A stretch of DNA of 64,000 nucleotides from a virus: positions 1-64,000 of the IMG/VR virus record IMGVR_UViG_3300043313_000346; one strand, given 5' to 3'. Below the pieces are notes generated by a model that saw nothing but the letters and a program-made list of their open reading frames with translations, had not been told where the DNA came from and did no database searches. Made by a program: the position numbers and the translations under genes. Of the stretch, positions 393 through 17,676 are shown piece after piece; position 1 is the first letter of the stretch, and each line of letters opens with the position of its first letter.

Positions 393-532
393 AGAAGTGC
401 CTGTGCTGCAGCCACTTCTGCGATCAAAGAAGTGCCTGTGCCACAGGGGTTTCTCGTTTCACGTGAAACAGGGGCCAGCATTGCCCTGCCTCTCATGTGT
501 GAGAAGTGCCTGCAGCACAGGGGTTTCTCACA
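393..532. repeat. Cluster of three related hairpins
   Basis: Hairpin 1 (393-419) pairs AGAAGTG with CACTTCT. Hairpin 2 (428-454) pairs AGAA with TTCT outside and CCTGTG with CACAGG inside. Hairpin 3 (498-532) pairs TGTGAGAA with TTCTCACA outside and CCTG with CAGG inside. Hairpins 2 and 3 match at about 25 of 28 central bases, and their outer and inner stems differ in compensatory ways. A further stem (CTGCAC/GTGCAG, 567-596) lies in the 3' end of the HNH-kinase gene. Confidence 0.65.
455..470. promoter_or_regulatory. parS: parS-like ParB-binding site
   Basis: CGTTTCACGTGAAACA matches the bacterial parS consensus TGTTTCACGTGAAACA at 15 of 16 bases, and its central 14 bases are a perfect palindrome. 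parS is the loading site for the CTPase ParB. No parA or parB is visible in this window, so the site would use host ParB or a phage ParB encoded elsewhere. It sits between hairpins 2 and 3. Confidence 0.65.
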
Positions 533-1370
533 TCACTGCAAGATGTCCCTGTGCTGCAGCACTTTCCTGCACTGTGCGGGGGGCCCTGCTGTGCAGAAAA
601 TGCCAGCGCTTCACGCCGTTGGTCAGGTCCGCAACAGCATGAGCCCGAGCAGGGTCAGCATGCAGTCGCTCAATGCAGACGTCGGCCGGGGTGTCGAGCA
701 CGATGACGTTTTCCCGATCGATGCCGAGCGCGTCGCACCATGCATCGCGTTCGTCCTCTTCAGCGCCACCGATCACCACGAAAGCGCGACCGCGCGCCTT
801 GAGCGCGAGGCTTCGCAGCATGCTGTCGCGATAGGCCATCGCCCGGCGGAAAATCCTGCGATCGGTGTCCCAAGCTCGACCACCGACAGCGACCTTGCAA
901 TCGTCGAGGCTGACCACGCTGTCCTCGCTGCGCTTGCGTGCGTTGACCCATGTCGTTTTGCCCGAAGCTGGTGGGCCGCAGATCAGGAAAACCGGGACGG
1001 CTGACGGTCGAATGTGGTGCGGGATGGAAAAGCCGAAGCGGCGGAAGGCTTCGCGCGGCAGGTTGGCGGGGTGCTTGGGATCGATCGGCCATCCGTCAGG
1101 ACCGAGTGCGCGATCGTAGCCGCGCGCCTCGATGAATTTTTTGCGCACTTCGTGACACTGGCGGCAGACGCTCTGCAGCTTTCCGTTCCAGAATTTTTCG
1201 ACGTCGCCGAAGTGTCGCTCGACATGGTCGACGATGGTTGCCGGCGTGATCTTGCCGCGCGGCTTGCACATCATGCACAGCGGTTCGGCCTGCAATTGCT
1301 GCAGCCGCATCCGCTTCCAGCGTCGATGGCGATACCATTTCGTCCAAGGTGCTACGCTCTCGAAGGTCAT
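528..1370 (-). CDS. HNH endonuclease fused to P-loop kinase-like ATPase
   Basis: A protein of 280 residues with two parts. Residues about 30-85 form an HNH nuclease domain (MCK...IVDHVERHFGD...LQSVCRQCHEVRK) with two metal-binding cysteine pairs. From about residue 128 a P-loop fold begins with CGPPASGKTTWV and continues in the style of polynucleotide kinase or zeta-toxin kinases. Phage HNH proteins often nick DNA or help terminase, and the kinase half could act on DNA or RNA ends; both roles are inferred. It is the last gene of the leftward operon, and its ATG overlaps the stop of a tiny membrane peptide. Confidence 0.75.
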   Translation of the reverse strand: MTFESVAPWTKWYRHRRWKRMRLQQLQAEPLCMMCKPRGKITPATIVDHVERHFGDVEKFWNGKLQSVCRQCHEVRKKFIEARGYDRALGPDGWPIDPKHPANLPREAFRRFGFSIPHHIRPSAVPVFLICGPPASGKTTWVNARKRSEDSVVSLDDCKVAVGGRAWDTDRRIFRRAMAYRDSMLRSLALKARGRAFVVIGGAEEDERDAWCDALGIDRENVIVLDTPADVCIERLHADPARAHAVADLTNGVKRWHFLHSRAPRTVQESAAAQGHLAVM

Positions 1371-1873: not shown

Positions 1874-1948
1874 TCAGTCGAGCATGGCGAGGCAGACGCC
1901 GATCGCCCATCCGATGGCGAACGCGGCGATGCTGACGTCGTCGATCAT
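1874..1948 (-). CDS. Tiny hydrophobic peptide, 24 aa
   Basis: Encodes MIDDVSIAAFAIGWAIGVCL plus four residues. Its ATG overlaps the stop of the NusG-like gene in an ATGA arrangement, which supports real coupled translation. The hydrophobic stretch is long enough for one membrane helix. Function unknown. Confidence 0.45.
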   Translation of the reverse strand: MIDDVSIAAFAIGWAIGVCLAMLD

Positions 1949-2430
1949 CGCCGCATCTCGATCGGCTCGATTGAGCCCTTGGGCATGGTGACGCTGACGC
2001 TCTGGCCGAGTAGATCGAGCAGGATGCGCTCGCGTTGTGAGCCGTTCATGCCCTGATAGATCGCGGTCCTGCCGGCGAACATCCCGGTGGTGACGCGCAC
2101 GCTCTGGCCTTCCTGCAGTGTCGCCGCCTTGGGCAGCTTGACGAAGCCGCCGCGCTCTCTGCCCTTGATCTCATCCACGATCGCATCCGCCAATTTTGCC
2201 GGTGTGTCGCCAGCCATCAACAATTTGAGCACGCCGGGGCACCAGCGGATCGGATACCAGCGCACGACCACGCGCACCATCAGATAACCGGGAAACAGCG
2301 GTGCCGCGCGTTTCTCCTCGCGCACCTTGGGCACATAGGTCTCGAAGCCCTCGCGCTTGAGATGCTCGGTGACGAGGTCTTCGCGTTGCGACATGGCAAC
2401 GGCGACGGTCCAGTAGGGTTGCTCGCTCAT
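1945..2430 (-). CDS. NusG/RfaH-family transcription elongation factor
   Basis: From MSEQPYW (preceded by the ribosome site GAGGCGAG) this is 161 residues. Residues 1-90 have the NGN pattern (WTVAVAMSQREDLVTEHL...APLFPGYLMV). The C-terminal half has a KOW segment (GQSVRVTTGMFAGRTAIYQG). NusG proteins bind RNA polymerase and set pausing, termination or coupling. RfaH-like specialised paralogues antiterminate chosen operons, so a phage copy is a candidate antiterminator for the long early or late operons. That role is inferred. Confidence 0.85.
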   Translation of the reverse strand: MSEQPYWTVAVAMSQREDLVTEHLKREGFETYVPKVREEKRAAPLFPGYLMVRVVVRWYPIRWCPGVLKLLMAGDTPAKLADAIVDEIKGRERGGFVKLPKAATLQEGQSVRVTTGMFAGRTAIYQGMNGSQRERILLDLLGQSVSVTMPKGSIEPIEMRR

Positions 2431-2610
2431 CTCGCCTCGCTGGTGGGTGATGGCTTGCACGGTTTCACGGGGCTATGCCTTGGCCCTGTCGCGGCCTGCC
2501 CGAACCATGCCTTGTTGCGCCTTGCACGCTCGCCCGTTGCCATCTCGGATGCGGGGAAAAGCCCGCGACAGGTATCTCGTCTCTCGACGTCGCTGGTGAT
2601 CTCGCTGCCC

Positions 2611-2857
2611 TTCCGCGAAACGGTTGTGCCGCGAGACGTATGGACTCTTTGCTTCCTTCGGCTGATCGCTTGGCGGTTGTGGGGCGAGCGCCGCGAATGC
2701 TTGCGTCGCCCTATAGGGCCAAAATGTGTATTGCCTTCCGCGAATGCGGAAAGGCTTTCGCGGGCCTTCCGCGAAACATTTTGGGCTATAGGCGACGATG
2801 TTTCGCGGACCGCGAAACCGCGAAAGACCGCGAAAGCAAAAACAGGGTTTCGCGGAA
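2611..2857. repeat. Iteron array, core CCGCGAAA
   Basis: Direct copies start near 2613, 2738 (last base changed), 2770, 2810, 2818 and 2828. Inverted copies lie at 2756-2763, 2801-2808 and 2848-2855. The copies at 2810-2837 are almost tandem, with 8-10 bp spacing. Arrays like this bind replication initiators or origin-binding proteins. Confidence 0.65.
2703..2796. repeat. Long imperfect inverted repeat inside the iteron array
   Basis: The left arm CGTCGCCCTATAGGG followed by CCAAAATGT mirrors the right arm ACATTTTGGGCTATAGGCG. The arms are about 24 bp and enclose about 50 bp that contain two iterons. The dyad could extrude as a cruciform or act as an origin or initiator-binding dyad. Confidence 0.6.
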
Positions 2858-2910
2858 GGGGGTTTTGCGGCCCGGAAATCCGCTCCATTTTCGGCGCTGC
2901 ACAACAGCCG

Positions 2911-3540
2911 CTAAACATGATGTTCGACTCCAGCGTGTGGGGTGATGGCGCCGATCTCGATCAGGAAAGCGTGCCGCTGCCGCTCGCTCGCGCGGCCCCA
3001 CGACGACACGATCCAGCGCGACAGGCTGTCGATCTTTGATAGCTCGCTGACATGCAGATGCTTGGTGCCGGGATCGAGCCGCTTGCCGTCGTCGGCGGTC
3101 GCGACATGGTGCCGGCGGATGAAGTCCGGCTTGGTGATCCAGCCGCCGATCTCGAACAGGTCACCGCCGAGATAGCGCACCATCACGAACACGTCGGCCC
3201 GGCACTGGTGCAGCCATTCGTTCTTGGTGATGGGCCACATCAGGAACTGCGTGCGCGTGCTCTTCACGTCGACCAGCACGCCGAGTTGCTCGACGTCCCA
3301 GCCCGGATCGAGCCGCTTCGACCAGTCGAGCTTGCGTTCAGGATCGAGCCCGAAGTGCAGGCAATAGGCGCATTCGCCGCCCTTGCCGAAAAACTGATGC
3401 GGCACGCTCTTGTCGATGCCGGGCCGCGCATAGATGCGCGAGGCTTCCTTCTCGCGCTTGTCGTAGCCGTCGACCGATTGCTCGCCGAACGCAAGCGATC
3501 GCTCCATCCATTTACGCGGCAGTTTTATAAGCGGCTTCAT
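2911..3540 (-). CDS. Possible PD-(D/E)XK nuclease-like protein
   Basis: From MKPLIKLPRKW this is 209 residues; the start lies 29 bp inside the 3' end of the methyltransferase gene. A strand with GVLVDVKSTRTQF resembles the D...(E/D)xK core of PD-(D/E)XK nucleases, followed by a helix with KNEWLHQCRADVFVMV. A CxxC pair (ECAYC) lies upstream. The nuclease reading rests on one motif and is tentative. It could act with the neighbouring methyltransferase or in replication. Confidence 0.5.
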   Translation of the reverse strand: MKPLIKLPRKWMERSLAFGEQSVDGYDKREKEASRIYARPGIDKSVPHQFFGKGGECAYCLHFGLDPERKLDWSKRLDPGWDVEQLGVLVDVKSTRTQFLMWPITKNEWLHQCRADVFVMVRYLGGDLFEIGGWITKPDFIRRHHVATADDGKRLDPGTKHLHVSELSKIDSLSRWIVSSWGRASERQRHAFLIEIGAITPHAGVEHHV

Positions 3541-4609
3541 GGCCCAACACGCTCCACCCTTCGATCTCACCACGCGCAAAAATCTCAACCCGGTTGTCGG
3601 CTGTGAAATCCGGGTACATGCGTTCGATCGCCTGCCTGATCTCTGGCGGCTTGGCGCTGTGCTTGCCGCGCCGATAGCGAAACACCGAAGACAAAAGCTC
3701 GATCGGCTTCGGCGGCGCGCCGCGCGATCCGTAGAGCAGCACTTCGTGTTGATTGCGGAAGATCAGGCCGAGCCCGATCACTTCCTTGTCCCAAACCGCA
3801 TGCGTCTTGTATTCGAAGCCGAGCCCTTCCATCACGGCGAGTGCGCGCTTGAGGTTCGACGACGTACACCACATGAACATCGCGCAGTCGTCCTGCGCGA
3901 GTTGCTCGATGGTCTGCCCGAAAAATTCGATGTCGATGATCTCTTCGTCGGTCATGACCGGGTAGTGATCGTCCGGCATGCGGTGCGTCATGTCGGGCGT
4001 GTGCGTCTCGAACGTCCAAGGCGGATCGAGATAGATCAGCGCGAACGGCCCGAGCTTCGCCGGCGCCGCGAGCTTGGCCTTCGCTGCCTGCCTGACGATG
4101 CGCTTGTGCTTGTCCTTGCGCTTTTCTTGATGCCAGAACGGGCGCGCGGCGGTGATCAGTTCGTTGTAGGTGACGAAGTCTTCAGTGCCGCGATAGTGCG
4201 CCAGCGTCGATTCCAGCTTCGGCGGCGGCAGCGCGCCGACGCGCTGGACGGCAACCGCCGTCTGTTTGGTCAGCCCGAGCTTCCCTAAAACTGATGTAAA
4301 TCCACTTGACGCCAGTTTCCCCTTGCCGGGATGTTTGGCCCGCTCGATCTTCGCCAGCATCCGGCCGAGCTTCCAGCGTGCCCTGATCTTTCCTTCGTTC
4401 GCCTCGCGCACCTGTTCAGACTTGAACAGCCCGGTGCTGCGCATCATGTGCTCGATCGATTCCAGCTTGCGTTCGATGTCGAGAACCTCTTCCGGATCGG
4501 TAGCTTTCTCCAGCGCGCGCAGCCCGGCGCTGATCATGCGCAGCACCGCCGCCGGATTCTCCGTCTTCTTCCTGACCGCATTTCCCGCCACAGTTTTTCT
4601 CCCTTTCAT
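3512..4609 (-). CDS. MT-A70 family DNA N6-adenine methyltransferase
   Basis: A 365-residue protein. The catalytic motif DPPW is at about residue 195 in LIYLDPPWTF, with later blocks typical of MT-A70 enzymes (MFMWCTSSNL, HAVWDKEVIGLG, HEVLLYGSRG, RVEIFARG). The N-terminal 170 residues are helical and basic and may bind DNA. MT-A70 enzymes transfer a methyl group from S-adenosylmethionine to adenine N6; phages use this to avoid restriction or mark replication state. Its ATG overlaps the stop of the primase-helicase gene. Confidence 0.88.
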   Translation of the reverse strand: MKGRKTVAGNAVRKKTENPAAVLRMISAGLRALEKATDPEEVLDIERKLESIEHMMRSTGLFKSEQVREANEGKIRARWKLGRMLAKIERAKHPGKGKLASSGFTSVLGKLGLTKQTAVAVQRVGALPPPKLESTLAHYRGTEDFVTYNELITAARPFWHQEKRKDKHKRIVRQAAKAKLAAPAKLGPFALIYLDPPWTFETHTPDMTHRMPDDHYPVMTDEEIIDIEFFGQTIEQLAQDDCAMFMWCTSSNLKRALAVMEGLGFEYKTHAVWDKEVIGLGLIFRNQHEVLLYGSRGAPPKPIELLSSVFRYRRGKHSAKPPEIRQAIERMYPDFTADNRVEIFARGEIEGWSVLGHEAAYKTAA

Positions 4610-6780
4610 GCCTCATCGATCGTTGTGCCGGGCAGCTTGCTCATGTTGACGCGCAGCCCCTTGCGCGACTTGCCCTTGCTGGTCGACGTCGTGACATCGA
4701 CTTCCTTCAGCACGCCGTTCTTGACCCACACGTTGAGCAGCTTCTGCGCTTCCTTGTCGGCGCACTCGACGTGCTCCTGCACCACGGTGCCGGCCCATCG
4801 CGTGGTCTTGCCGCGTCGCGTCAGCGTGTAGAGATCAGGCGTCGGATCGATCCGCGCGCCGTCGTCGGTGGCGAGACGCGGCTTGTTCTCGACGATCACG
4901 CCCTTGTCGATCGCGAGCAGGATCGTGCGCGCGAGCCCGGCGTCGATCTTGTCGAACACGTTCTTCGGCTTGAACACTTCGAGCACGCCAAGCTCGTCGG
5001 CCGGCTCGTCGTCGCCGCCCTTGTTCGGCAGCGTGAACGTGCGCTTGAAAAACCAGCGCGCCTTGAACGTCACCAAGCTCAGGTTGGCCTTGGCATCGTC
5101 GAAGCGCAGATATTCGTGGCGCCGATCCGGATCGATCTCGAACGCCTGCGCCTCGATCTCGGTCATGGTGAACAAGGTCGAGACCACGCGCGCGACACCG
5201 AGCAGCGCGCCGGCCCCACGCGAGACATCCATGTCGCCGGGCGCGTTGGCATATTTGCGCGTGTGATGCACCAGCCAGACCGCGCAGTTGGTGCGGCGCG
5301 CGATCTCGCGCCACAGCACCGCGCACCATTTCAATTCGCTGTTGCTCGACTCATCGCCCTCGAAGGTCTCAGCAAACGGATCGACGATCAGCACATCGAT
5401 CTTGTCGGCCTCGATGCGCGCGATGATGTTCTCGATCATCGGCGTGCGGACCACGGTTTTCGTGCGGCTGTTGGCGCGCGCGATCACGATGTCTTCCGGT
5501 CTGTCGGCGAGCGCGAGCCGATCGTGCAGCACCGCCTCGTCGCAGTTCATGATCTTGGCCGCCGCATAGAGCCGCCGGCGCATCTCGTCGCCGTCGTCCT
5601 CCGAGTTGATCACCAGCACCTTGAGCGGGCCGCGCGGATGCCAGCCGGCCCACGGCACCGCCGTCGTCATCATCAGCGCCATCTGCAGGGTGAGCAGCGA
5701 CTTGCCCGAGCCCGGTGGCGCCACCATCACCGAGACGTGGCGGCGCAATAACAGCCCCGGCACGACCCACGGCCGGCGCGGAATCTCTTCAGGCCGAATC
5801 GGGAACGGATAGACAACCGGCACCGGCACGATCGGCGCCGGCTTGGCCTCATCGCCCGGCGGCTGCCAGTCCTGTGCAAACGTTGACCCATCTTCGTGCT
5901 GGTCGTGGCCGTTGGTCGCCGGCATCTCTTCGATCGGCAGGCTGTCGAGCGCCTCGCGCGTGCCGCCGCGTTCGATGTACTCGCTCAAATCCTTCGCCGG
6001 CAGCTTGAGCAGCGCGACGCTCGCCGCGATCGGCTTCAGCCGCTTGGCGATGACGCGCGCAAGCTCGCCGCCCTTCATCGGATCGTCGTCCTGATCCGGC
6101 ACCAGCACGACGTTGGCGCCACGGAAAAAATCGTCGTAGGTGCCGCGCTCCCAAAAACCCTTGCCGGCGGTGCCCATCGCGGTGGTGGTCGTCACCAGCC
6201 CGAGCGCCGCGCCGTTGTCGGCATCCTTCTCGCCTTCGACCCAGTAGACCGGATGACCGTGTGCAATGCCCTCGATCAGATCGGGCAAGCGATACGGCAC
6301 CATCCGCACGCCCTGCAGGTTCTCGATCCATTGATCGGGATGCACCGGGTCCGGCCGGCGCTGCGAGAAGCTCTTCGGATCGGCATAGCGGCAGACCTGA
6401 TAGTTCACCGCGTCGTGCTCGTCGGTGTAGTCGTAGGCGCACGAGAACTTGCCGCGCGGCTTTGACTTGCCCTTGTGCGTCTTCGGCGCGTCATCCTTCG
6501 GCGGCGGCTCGCCGGTGATGATCTCGACCGCCTGCACGAAGCTGACGCCGTCGAGCGCCATCACAAGGCTGATCGCGCCGTGCCCCTTGGTGCCGCAGCC
6601 GCGACAGTTGAACACCTGCTTTTCCAGATCGACCGCGAAGCGATCCTCGCCACCGCATTTCGGACACGGGCCGGCGCGCTTGTTGCCGCGTCCCATCAGC
6701 TTGATCTGGCGGCTGCTAAGTATCGCGTTGACGTGAGCATCCCGCGCACGATCGACCCAATGGCGGAACGCGGGCGTCAT
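4606..6780 (-). CDS. Replicative primase-helicase (zinc ribbon, TOPRIM, RecA-like ATPase)
   Basis: A 724-residue fusion. Residues about 38-65 form a DnaG-type zinc finger (CPKCGGEDRFAVD...CRGCGTKGHG). Residues about 175-245 form a TOPRIM domain (YWVEGEKDADNGAA, VLVPDQDDD). From about 345 a RepA/RecA-like helicase follows, with Walker A PPGSGKS near 357, SEDDGDEMRRRL, Walker B VLIVDPFAETF near 463, and WLVHHTRK. It would prime and unwind DNA at the phage fork. It lies between the RuvC-like and MT-A70 genes, with a 4-base overlap downstream. Confidence 0.92.
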   Translation of the reverse strand: MTPAFRHWVDRARDAHVNAILSSRQIKLMGRGNKRAGPCPKCGGEDRFAVDLEKQVFNCRGCGTKGHGAISLVMALDGVSFVQAVEIITGEPPPKDDAPKTHKGKSKPRGKFSCAYDYTDEHDAVNYQVCRYADPKSFSQRRPDPVHPDQWIENLQGVRMVPYRLPDLIEGIAHGHPVYWVEGEKDADNGAALGLVTTTTAMGTAGKGFWERGTYDDFFRGANVVLVPDQDDDPMKGGELARVIAKRLKPIAASVALLKLPAKDLSEYIERGGTREALDSLPIEEMPATNGHDQHEDGSTFAQDWQPPGDEAKPAPIVPVPVVYPFPIRPEEIPRRPWVVPGLLLRRHVSVMVAPPGSGKSLLTLQMALMMTTAVPWAGWHPRGPLKVLVINSEDDGDEMRRRLYAAAKIMNCDEAVLHDRLALADRPEDIVIARANSRTKTVVRTPMIENIIARIEADKIDVLIVDPFAETFEGDESSNSELKWCAVLWREIARRTNCAVWLVHHTRKYANAPGDMDVSRGAGALLGVARVVSTLFTMTEIEAQAFEIDPDRRHEYLRFDDAKANLSLVTFKARWFFKRTFTLPNKGGDDEPADELGVLEVFKPKNVFDKIDAGLARTILLAIDKGVIVENKPRLATDDGARIDPTPDLYTLTRRGKTTRWAGTVVQEHVECADKEAQKLLNVWVKNGVLKEVDVTTSTSKGKSRKGLRVNMSKLPGTTIDEA

Positions 6781-6784
6781 GGCT

Positions 6785-7372
6785 TTAGCCCTGCTGCTTT
6801 GCTTGGCGCGCCGCCGCGACTTCCTCCCATGAGCCGAACAGCGGCGTGGTTGCCAGCGCCGAAGCCGGGTTGATCAGCCCGGCGGTGTAGCTCCACAGCG
6901 CGAGCGCGTCGGCGGCGTTGTCGTCGCTCGCGGTCCAACCCAGCATCTTGCAGCGCTCGTAGACCGCGCGCTTGGCCGCCTCGCGCTTGAGCGTGCGTTC
7001 CTGAATGAAGTGCTGGCGCACGTCGAGCACGCTGGCCGAGATCACTTCCGGAATCTGCGCATGCCGCGCCAGCCCGCGCACGATGCCGTGGAAGCCGGCG
7101 AGCTTGTGCTGCACGCCGGTGTTGGTGGTGCCAAGCCGCGCGGTCGGCGGCAGCAATTCCTCGATCGCGAGGATGTCGGGGTTGGGCTCGCGTTCGAGCG
7201 TGTCGGAAAACCATTCGAGGCAGGCGCCGAACAGCGTGTCACTGGTCGAGCCCACCGGCGCGAAGCGAACCGAGTGTGCCTTCGGCCTTTCGTTGGCGCG
7301 GCCGATCGCAAACCCGGTGACGGTGGCAATGTCGAGTGCCCAGATCAGCGGCTTGCGATCGGCTGCTGTCAT
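6785..7372 (-). CDS. RuvC-like Holliday junction resolvase
   Basis: A 195-residue RNase H-fold protein. The first acidic residue is in WALDIATVTGFAIG, a second acidic pair is in ILAIEELLPP, and the last acidic motif is DDNAADALALW. These match the catalytic carboxylates of RuvC family nucleases, which cut four-way junctions. In phages the enzyme removes branches before packaging or during recombination. The stop lies four bases before the primase-helicase start. Confidence 0.85.
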   Translation of the reverse strand: MTAADRKPLIWALDIATVTGFAIGRANERPKAHSVRFAPVGSTSDTLFGACLEWFSDTLEREPNPDILAIEELLPPTARLGTTNTGVQHKLAGFHGIVRGLARHAQIPEVISASVLDVRQHFIQERTLKREAAKRAVYERCKMLGWTASDDNAADALALWSYTAGLINPASALATTPLFGSWEEVAAARQAKQQG

Positions 7373-8964: not shown

Positions 8965-9899
8965 GCGCCGATGATCATCTCAACATCCATCCGATCACCG
9001 ATGCCTGCCACGGCGAAGAGACTCTGACGATCTTCAACGCCAGCGACATGGGCAGCCTGTTCGGCGTCGGCTTCAAGTCGCTCGCCTATGTCTCGGCCAA
9101 GAAGCGCGGCATCGTTCCGCTGGCGTCCGACGATCCCGAGAATCCGCTGATGGAACGTGGGCTCGACTTCGAGGACGCCGCGCGCAAACGCGTGGCACGC
9201 AAATATCCCGCGTGGCAGATCACAAAATGCACCGATCATTATGTTGCGGATCGCATCGGCGCCAAGCCGGACAATCTGGTGATCGATCCGGCACGCGAGG
9301 GTGTCGGTGTGCTGGAGCTAAAGGTAACCGCCGAGCCGATCCACCGGCGCGAGTGGCTCGATGACACGCCACCGCTGAAATACTTGCTGCAGCTTTCGAC
9401 GCAGATGATGCTGGTGCCCGACTGCACATGGGGCGCGATCGGCGAACTGGTGGTCGGCCCGTTCACCTACGAGACCAACGTCTACATCGTCGAGCGCAAC
9501 CGCAGCGCCGAAATCCGGCTGCGCACCGCCGTTGCCGAGTTCTGGCAGACGTTCGACGCCGGCGGCGAACCGGCGATCGACTTCGAGCGCGACGGCGCGC
9601 TGATCGCGCTGATGTTCCCGCATGAAGTGCCGGGCAAGGTGATCGACCTGTCGTCCGACAATGCGATCCGCGATCTGTTGCAGCGTCGCGACATTCTCAA
9701 GGACACCGAGAAGGACGTCGTGAAGCGGCTGAAGGAATGCGAAAACGAGATCAAGGCCAAGCTCGGCGATGCCGAAGGCGCGATCGTGCCGGGCTGGCGC
9801 GTGACGCTCAAGACGCAGCACCGCAAAGGCTACACCGTCGAGCCGTCATCGTTTCGTGTGCTGCGCACCACGCGCCACGAGCAGGAGACGGCATCATGA
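8961..9899 (+). CDS. YqaJ-like viral recombinase (alkaline exonuclease)
   Basis: 312 residues. Motifs of the YqaJ/lambda-exonuclease PD-(D/E)XK family are seen: a substrate loop near residue 40, MERGLDFEDAARKRVARKYP with the helix glutamate, then KPDNLVID...VLELKVT with the catalytic E-x-K. Such enzymes resect one DNA strand to give 3' overhangs for the RecT-type annealase encoded two genes downstream. The last 60 residues form a charged helical tail. Confidence 0.88.
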   Translation: MSADDHLNIHPITDACHGEETLTIFNASDMGSLFGVGFKSLAYVSAKKRGIVPLASDDPENPLMERGLDFEDAARKRVARKYPAWQITKCTDHYVADRIGAKPDNLVIDPAREGVGVLELKVTAEPIHRREWLDDTPPLKYLLQLSTQMMLVPDCTWGAIGELVVGPFTYETNVYIVERNRSAEIRLRTAVAEFWQTFDAGGEPAIDFERDGALIALMFPHEVPGKVIDLSSDNAIRDLLQRRDILKDTEKDVVKRLKECENEIKAKLGDAEGAIVPGWRVTLKTQHRKGYTVEPSSFRVLRTTRHEQETAS

Positions 9900-12365: not shown

Positions 12366-12625
12366 CCGACAAAGACATTGAATGGCAGGACGCCGGCCGC
12401 GAGCCGAAGGTCGCGCCAAATCCGCTCTATCCGAACGGCATCGATCTCGACGTCTCGGACGGCATCAAGCCGGCGTGCTTCGTCAAGCTGGCATACCCTG
12501 CGCGGCGCGTCGGCCGTTACGTGATCAAGTGCAGGACGTGCGGATGGGTTGGCATCATCTCGACCGCCGGCCGTCCGGACGATCCGCGCTCGGTGACGAT
12601 CCCGTGCCTACGGGTGCTGCAATGA
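12362..12625 (+). CDS. Small CxxC hypothetical protein
   Basis: 87 residues. A single CRTCGWVG knuckle near residue 58 could bind metal with C38 and C83. The N-terminal PNPLYPNGIDLDVSDG is typical of small alphaproteobacterial phage proteins. Function unknown. Confidence 0.6.
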   Translation: MTDKDIEWQDAGREPKVAPNPLYPNGIDLDVSDGIKPACFVKLAYPARRVGRYVIKCRTCGWVGIISTAGRPDDPRSVTIPCLRVLQ

Positions 12626-13125
12626 CCGCCACGCTCAAGCAAGACTTCACGCTCACGCTGCGCGACTTCATCACTGCCATCGACAGGAATGTCGTGAAGA
12701 TTTTCGAGCGCAACGGCGTGATCGAGCCGATGTGGCACTGCATCACGGCATCCGGCGAGCACCGGATCGAGCTGTCGCCGGCAGTCGACAAGGATTTGGC
12801 TGCGATCCTGATGCGCGTCTACTTCGTGCTGCACAACGTGACGCGCTATGCCTTCATCGATGAGGCATGGACGCTGATGCTGCCGCTCGGCTTCAGCGAC
12901 GCTGAAATTCGCGAGATCGCGCGGCGCGGGCTCGCCGATCATCCCGGCCGTGTCGAAGTGCTGATGTATCAGGTCGAAGACGAGAGCGGAGCGCTCACTG
13001 CGCATCGCAACATCATCCGCGCGGGCGGCGGCAAGCCCACGCTCGGCCCGCTCACATTCTTTGAGACCAAGGAAAGCGAAGGTCGCTTCATCGGCATGTT
13101 GCCTCAACGGGGAACGATGCAATGA
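12622..13125 (+). CDS. Hypothetical protein, 167 aa
   Basis: The chosen ATG overlaps the previous stop. The sequence is soluble and mixed alpha/beta (MRVYFVLHNVTRYAFIDEAW, GRVEVLMYQVEDES, TFFETKESEGRFIGML). No recognised family. The stop overlaps the next gene in ATGA fashion. Confidence 0.6.
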   Translation: MTATLKQDFTLTLRDFITAIDRNVVKIFERNGVIEPMWHCITASGEHRIELSPAVDKDLAAILMRVYFVLHNVTRYAFIDEAWTLMLPLGFSDAEIREIARRGLADHPGRVEVLMYQVEDESGALTAHRNIIRAGGGKPTLGPLTFFETKESEGRFIGMLPQRGTMQ

Positions 13126-17065: not shown

Positions 17066-17457
17066 TGAAGCCGGCTGAGATCATCGCGCACATCGAGCAC
17101 GTCGCGCGCATGGGCGGGCCCGGCGCGTGGATGCGCAACCAAGAGCTTCTCGCCGGCCGCTGGCTGGTGAAGCCGGGCTCGGTGCCGTGGCTGCCGGCGG
17201 AAGATTGGGACGATGGCAGCATCATCAGCGTCGACGCTGACGACCGCGTGCGGCTGGTCGCGCTGGCGGCCAAGCGTCCGGGGCGCGGTGCCTTCAAGCG
17301 GCTGGTCGCGCTGATCCGCGCGGCCGGGCTCTCGCCGGTGGTGGTGACGCCGACGGATCGGCTCGCGGCGCATCTCAAGCGGCGAGGCTGGCGCATGCGC
17401 GTGACCGGCAGCGGCGAGGCGGCGCAGACGATCTGGTATCCGCGCAAGCGGCGCTGA
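17062..17457 (+). CDS. Hypothetical protein, possible GNAT-like fold
   Basis: 131 residues. The second half (VRLVALAAKRPGRGAFKRLV, GLSPVVVTPTDRLAAHLKRRGWR) recalls the end of an acetyltransferase fold, where a strand-helix pair ends with a short-range partner helix. No acetyl-CoA loop is clear, so the assignment is weak. Confidence 0.55.
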   Translation: MMKPAEIIAHIEHVARMGGPGAWMRNQELLAGRWLVKPGSVPWLPAEDWDDGSIISVDADDRVRLVALAAKRPGRGAFKRLVALIRAAGLSPVVVTPTDRLAAHLKRRGWRMRVTGSGEAAQTIWYPRKRR

Positions 17458-17487
17458 AAGCTGCGTCAGAGTTGGTGGGTCTTTGTC

Positions 17488-17676
17488 ATGGGTAAAGCGA
17501 ACAGCACATTCCGCCAGCGCGACGTTGTCGCAGCGATCCGCGCGGCCAAGCGCGCGGGACAAAATGTGACATCGTTTGAAATTCTCCCAAACGGCAATAT
17601 AAAGGTCCACGTCGGCGCTCCCGCCGATGATTCCTCCAACCAGAAAACGGATGCCGATTCATGGGACGACGTTTGA
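17488..17676 (+). CDS. Integrase-associated small protein
   Basis: 62 residues (MGKANSTFRQRDVVAAIRAAKRAG...FEILPNGNIKV). Short proteins of this pattern often precede tyrosine integrases in rhizobial prophages. It overlaps the integrase start by 16 bases. It may aid recombination or set the integrase level; unknown. Confidence 0.6.
   Translation: MGKANSTFRQRDVVAAIRAAKRAGQNVTSFEILPNGNIKVHVGAPADDSSNQKTDADSWDDV

Follow-up and report, generated by a model that had tools for sequence, protein, structure and literature searches.

Mixed-orientation word array and hairpins downstream of an AAA_25 primase-helicase gene: a probable replication origin in a temperate tailed phage

SaPIs and SCC elements have iteron origins situated downstream of the gene for their initiator helicase (PMC7581432). 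In the rep-ori of SaPIs and SCCmec (Rep, Cch and Cch2), the repeats are recognized by the C-terminal domain of the helicase, according to a passage of that source which cites Ubeda et al. 2007 (PMC7581432). In pRN1, a stem-loop that is conserved in structure lies downstream of the primase-helicase, and the same has been proposed for BIP-1-like phages (PMC4234260). A study from 2022 on a related phage helicase termed the AAA_25 proteins a family without described function (PMC8965321), and a literature search that left many subscription papers outside its reach found no description of arrays adjoining AAA_25 helicases. What appears to be new here is the occurrence of such arrays with AAA_25 helicases, for which comparison between phages provides good support.

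The locus described here lies in a window comprising bases 1 to 64,000 of a 76,884-bp (76.9-kb) virus record. Judged by its other genes, which encode a tail sheath, portal, head protein, large terminase, integrase and RecE/RecT-like proteins, the record is that of a temperate tailed phage with a contractile tail. The SaPI and SCCmec rep-ori has its short repeats immediately after the initiator helicase gene, an arrangement that recurs at most of the AAA_25 loci compared below; in the window the array is displaced by two genes, and no AT-rich core is seen. Moreover, the SaPI and SCCmec helicases are of the DUF927 or D5 type, whereas the present one is an AAA_25, RSF1010-RepA-like RecA-fold helicase fused to a primase. 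By both sequence and fold it is of the RSF1010 RepA type, matching 1g8y by profile (E 2e-27) and 1nlf by structure (E 2.9e-13, TM 0.77 by target; also 1g8y). The helicase of the phage P4 alpha protein is of the SF3 type, whereas that of the window has the AAA_25/RecA fold. Alpha combines a primase, a helicase and a winged helix for the binding of origin repeats (PMC4234260), a combination that the window protein may share. RSF1010 (IncQ) oriV resembles the locus in its RepA-like hexameric helicase and its iterons and stem-loops for priming (PMC4234260). However, in RSF1010 the work is split among RepA, RepB' and RepC, of which RepC binds the iterons, whereas the window phage unites the primase and the helicase, with a putative winged helix, in a single polypeptide; no RepC-like iteron-binding protein was recognized among the neighbouring genes scanned, a subset of the ORFs. 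With pRN1 the locus shares a structure downstream of the replication gene that is conserved while its sequence is not (PMC4234260), but the pRN1 origin is one large stem-loop without iterons, and the primase of pRN1 is of the archaeal type and its helicase of the SF3 type. PLE RepA of Vibrio cholerae satellites offers a phage-related iteron origin with changing iterons that is attacked by an origin-directed nuclease (PMC8263062); it differs in having a RepA_N-family initiator (PMC7145576) and longer iterons (~30 bp).

Table 1. Genes, words and dyads around the array, in window coordinates
Feature	Position	Strand	Remarks
RuvC-like resolvase	6785-7372	-	
Primase-helicase	4606..6780	-	CHC2 zinc finger (PF01807); AAA_25 (PF13481), residues 331-509; predicted C-terminal winged helix, ~610-712
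MT-A70 family DNA methyltransferase	3512..4609	-	
Unknown-family protein	2911..3588	-	between methyltransferase and array
Open frame, 163 codons	2427..2918	-	spans whole array; coding status doubtful
Iteron-like array	2613..2855 (243 bp)	.	word CCGCGAAA plus shorter CCGCGAA copies
CCGCGAAA, plus-strand copies	2613-2620, 2769-2776, 2810-2817, 2818-2825, 2828-2835	+	
CCGCGAAA, minus-strand copies	2756-2763, 2801-2808, 2848-2855	-	
Shorter CCGCGAA copies	2691-2697, 2738-2744		
Palindrome CCCTATAGGG	2709..2718	.	one arm of larger dyad
Larger dyad	2710-2727 pairs with 2776-2792		surrounds mid-array
Imperfect inverted repeat TCCGCGAAACATTTTGGGCTA / TAGGCGACGATGTTTCGCGGA	2768-2788/2789-2809	.	21 bp, 81% complementary, no spacer
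Perfect 9-1-9 palindrome GTTTCGCGG-A-CCGCGAAAC	2800..2818	.	built from two words
NusG-like protein (PF02357)	1945..2430	-	ATG at 2430
HNH + AAA_33 protein	528-1370	-	matches phrog_4581, labelled terminase small subunit by PHROG

The genes around the array are all on the minus strand (Table 1). The original prediction was of about nine copies of a word, in both orientations, within 250 bp, and this holds: there are eight exact copies of CCGCGAAA, five on the plus and three on the minus strand, all inside the array and with none elsewhere in the 64-kb window or in 60.0-76.9 kb of the record. The total for the window is close to chance (8 vs 6.9 expected), and it is the clustering that is non-random. 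The densest 300 bp contain 10 copies of CCGCGAA (7 and 3 by strand), against at most 5 in 12 order-2, genome-sized nulls, and 8 copies of the 8-mer, against at most 4 in such nulls. CCGCGAAA is thus a clustered short word unique to the replicon, as is typical of iteron origins. An AT-rich unwinding element is not seen, the lowest 30-mer in the array having 40% GC; the hairpins of the region may take the place of such an element.

The imperfect inverted repeat that had been predicted together with the words is also present, and it is one of several dyads (Table 1). In the window, CCTATAG..CCAAAATG pairs with CATTTTGG..CTATAGG on the flanks of the array, and in the relative L007 CCCTACGGGGG pairs with CCCCCGTAGGG; the two flanking dyads are unlike in sequence, with pairing kept inside each phage. 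Palindromes of the CCCTATAGGG type recur in L007 (CCCCCTACGGGGG) and in a further relative, L009 (CCCTATAGGG). The window palindrome at 2709-2718 is a copy of CCCYNNRGGG, which at AAA_25 loci has 12 copies in 18.6 kb of array DNA vs 5 copies in 257.6 kb of control DNA and is frequently the core of a long near-perfect hairpin, e.g., CAGGGGAACCCCTAAAGGGGTTTCCCCTG. Long hairpins with CCCC-TAAA-GGGG or CCCC-TTTA-GGGG cores adjoin the word arrays of L057, L058, L062, L063, L068 and L084.

The window phage, L007 and L009 are the only three members found of their subgroup. All three carry an array at the corresponding position ahead of the NusG-like gene, and the word varies from one phage to the next: TTCCGCGAAA in the window, TTCCGCAATT in L007 and GGAACGG in L009. 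The L007 primase-helicase is 75% identical to that of the window, and its array (word CCGCAATT), which sits between an upstream gene and a short ORF followed by the NusG-like gene, aligns in layout with that of the window, AATTGCGG replacing TTTCGCGG. The common layout runs AAAACCCC-TTCCGC[AATT or GAAA]C, a T-rich spacer, forward words and then TCCGC[AATT or GAAA]C. In L009, the array lies after the stop of the primase-helicase gene and ahead of the start of the NusG-like gene, with 7 GGAACG in 260 bp vs at most 6 in 500 nulls. The L009 primase-helicase gene (2708-4741) encodes a primase part 76% identical to that of the window, but a helicase of only 26% and a C-terminus of only 19% identity, and the L009 word has no obvious similarity to the window word. 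By these comparisons L009 is a natural chimera, in which the primase part is as in the window, the helicase and C-terminus are replaced and the word array is new. L007 keeps the helicase (81%), and its word still shares TTCCGC with that of the window.

A wider comparison used 80 viral loci picked solely for an AAA_25 helicase by a helicase-domain search of viral contigs. In most of them, the best mixed-orientation 7-mer array of the locus adjoined the helicase gene at its 3' end. With one locus taken per 80%-identity cluster (41 clusters) and an array defined as at least 5 copies, 29 of the 41 segments that immediately follow the helicase gene on its 3' side carried one, compared with 1 of 282 segments from other parts of these loci (Fisher p ~1e-30); none of 123 shuffles reached 5 copies. 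The lone array among the control segments belongs to L100, where an array of the word type found in its relatives is displaced. No clear array was seen for 12 of the 41 helicase clusters at the sensitivity used, and none near the related helicase of Rhizobium phage RHph_X2_26. Named phages with an array near a RepA-like helicase are Rhodoferax phage P26218, Microcystis phage Mae-Yong1326-1 and podovirus ctfPj964. Arrays of this kind thus occur in dozens of unrelated phages, and their words differ. The words of the survey, found in both orientations, include TTGCGCCACC, TTGCGCCATT, TTGCTCCACC, TTGCACCACC, TTGCCCCAGT, TGCTCCAGTT, TCCACAGTT and TTCCGCAGTT, and by eye TTCCGCGAAA of the window and TTCCGCAATT of L007 fit this series. 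The array was originally described as beside the primase-helicase, which is loose for the window, since the two are 1.7 kb apart with the MT-A70 methyltransferase and 2911-3588 genes between them; in L009, as in the 29 clusters, the array is directly downstream of the helicase gene. L013, L016, L018 and L022 have similar mixed-orientation arrays behind helicase genes of the D5 type or DUF3987, and that of L018 surrounds an AT-rich spacer, as in SaPI origins. L020 has two different arrays (9000-9250 and 12550-12860), with the word GTTAGTCAC after an AAA_25 gene and GGTGACGATA after another gene without a Pfam match.

Two candidates had been named as binder of the words, a protein at 2911-3540 and the primase-helicase. 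The 2911-3588 protein has no match in Pfam or PHROG, and in the relatives the 2911-3588 gene does not adjoin the array, which speaks against it. The primase-helicase is favoured, and the reader of the words is best placed in its helicase half, because on the single swap event in L009 a replaced helicase and C-terminus go with a new word, while L007 keeps both the helicase and TTCCGC. About 110 residues beyond the RepA core are modelled as three helices and two strands (HHH-EE), resembling a winged helix; the structure matches of this extension are mostly winged-helix proteins, although weak (E 0.04-0.3). From the model we infer that the winged helix may read the words. Over 64 loci, however, word similarity correlates with the RecA domain (rho 0.37) about as well as with the C-terminus (rho 0.32), and the winged helix is therefore not singled out.

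The frame at 2427-2918 could be a real small gene whose coding sequence happens to be repetitive: it has 163 open codons, its ATG overlaps the upstream stop, its end overlaps the ATGA of the NusG-like gene, and the L007 and L009 arrays are likewise spanned by open frames. Composition-matched nulls leave this particular frame open in 2.5% of cases and at least one frame in 22%, which makes the open frame a mild surprise at most, and the predicted non-coding status is likely but not certain. Against a gene, the product has no family match, the L007 and window peptides are dissimilar, and of 33 arrays 27 are open in the forward direction and a similar number, 23, in reverse, on which ground we treat the array as probably non-coding and a small gene as very improbable. 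At array loci such as L012 (2860-3150), the array is often spanned by an open frame that begins shortly ahead of the helicase stop, probably due to words without stop codons.

It might also be argued that the array is a structured leader or control region of the downstream NusG-like antiterminator gene, with the words acting as RNA hairpins or operators. The array ends at this gene in the window and L009 and shortly before it in L007 (where one short ORF intervenes), the NusG-like proteins of the three phages share 76-79% identity (79% between L009 and the window), and the array transcript would fold strongly (z -2.2 for the window, median -2.9 over arrays). However, inverted words fold stem-like whatever their function, no Rfam family matches the array, and the words are wholly different despite the well-conserved protein. 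The other AAA_25 loci mostly have their array behind the helicase, with no NusG-like gene seen adjoining, and L039 has it at the helicase stop, with the NusG-like gene 1.5 kb beyond; a leader is therefore unlikely. Searches with the NusG-like protein gave no match in INPHARED and one weak, irrelevant match in GTDB genomes. Phage-specific words in both orientations would equally suit immunity or partition specificity, i.e., operators or sites for a repressor, a ParB-like protein or another phage regulator unrelated to initiation. We consider this improbable, as the position of the array is tied to the 3' end of the helicase gene and not to promoters or par genes; no promoter-like site was found near it, scans for promoters and terminators in 1900-4700 being at or below chance, no ParB_N protein was found in the record, and the parS-like site of the phage is elsewhere (456-469). 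A packaging (pac/cos) site is very unlikely: terminase-like genes do lie 1-3 kb from the array in some relatives, but the large terminase of this phage is at 75.4-76.9 kb, the association found is with the helicase, and another repeat cluster (300-560) sits between the large-terminase end of the record and the HNH/AAA_33 gene. This second cluster, also seen in L007 at 17280-17530, has 35-bp repeats (AGAAGTGCCTGTGCTGCAG..) and 10-bp steps (TGACGTATCA), and a perfect parS-like GTTTCACGTGAAAC, at 456-469 in the window, is also perfect in L007 at 17393; it is possibly a partition or packaging site.

We therefore consider it quite likely that the region 2461-2910 is an iteron-plus-hairpin replication origin, with the helicase half of the primase-helicase as its putative initiator, acting via a predicted C-terminal winged helix. 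The original reading as an origin gains support from arrays 3' of the same helicase class in most loci and from words that diverge as cognate sites would. Under this replication-origin reading, an initiator of the phage's own, most likely the helicase half through its winged helix, would bind several TTCCGCGAAA copies in both orientations. Binding would load or assemble RepA-like helicase hexamers on the words, and the hairpins and dyad would be opened, exposed or extruded. The fused primase would then lay primers on the exposed strands and start DNA synthesis, in a manner comparable to RepA and RepB' at the RSF1010 stem-loops. The cumulative GC skew, proposed earlier as a check, is mildly favourable, with a minimum at ~7 kb, ~4 kb from the array, and a maximum at ~47 kb of 76.9 kb; these extremes fit an origin in the array's part of the genome but are confounded by gene direction, which switches at the minimum. 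The Microcystis phage has a skew extreme ~0.5 kb from its array, and the skew of the Rhodoferax phage gives no clear picture.

More tentatively, we suggest that AAA_25 phage helicases could make up a large class, so far undescribed, of initiators that load themselves, each with its own DNA-reading domain and a cognate 3' array made up of a fast-changing word and a CCCC-TAAA-GGGG-type hairpin, word and reader co-evolving. If this holds, AAA_25 proteins would acquire a likely role, and there would be an easy rule to locate replication origins in many phages without a known origin; indeed, origins and initiator specificity would be predictable from phage sequence alone. Origin-directed nuclease arms races, as between PLE and ICP1 (PMC8263062), may drive the change of words, and the word series of the relatives, TTGCGCCA.., TTGCTCCA.., TTCCGCAGTT, TTCCGCAATT and TTCCGCGAAA, together with the sequenced helicases, would provide a data set for changes in initiator specificity.
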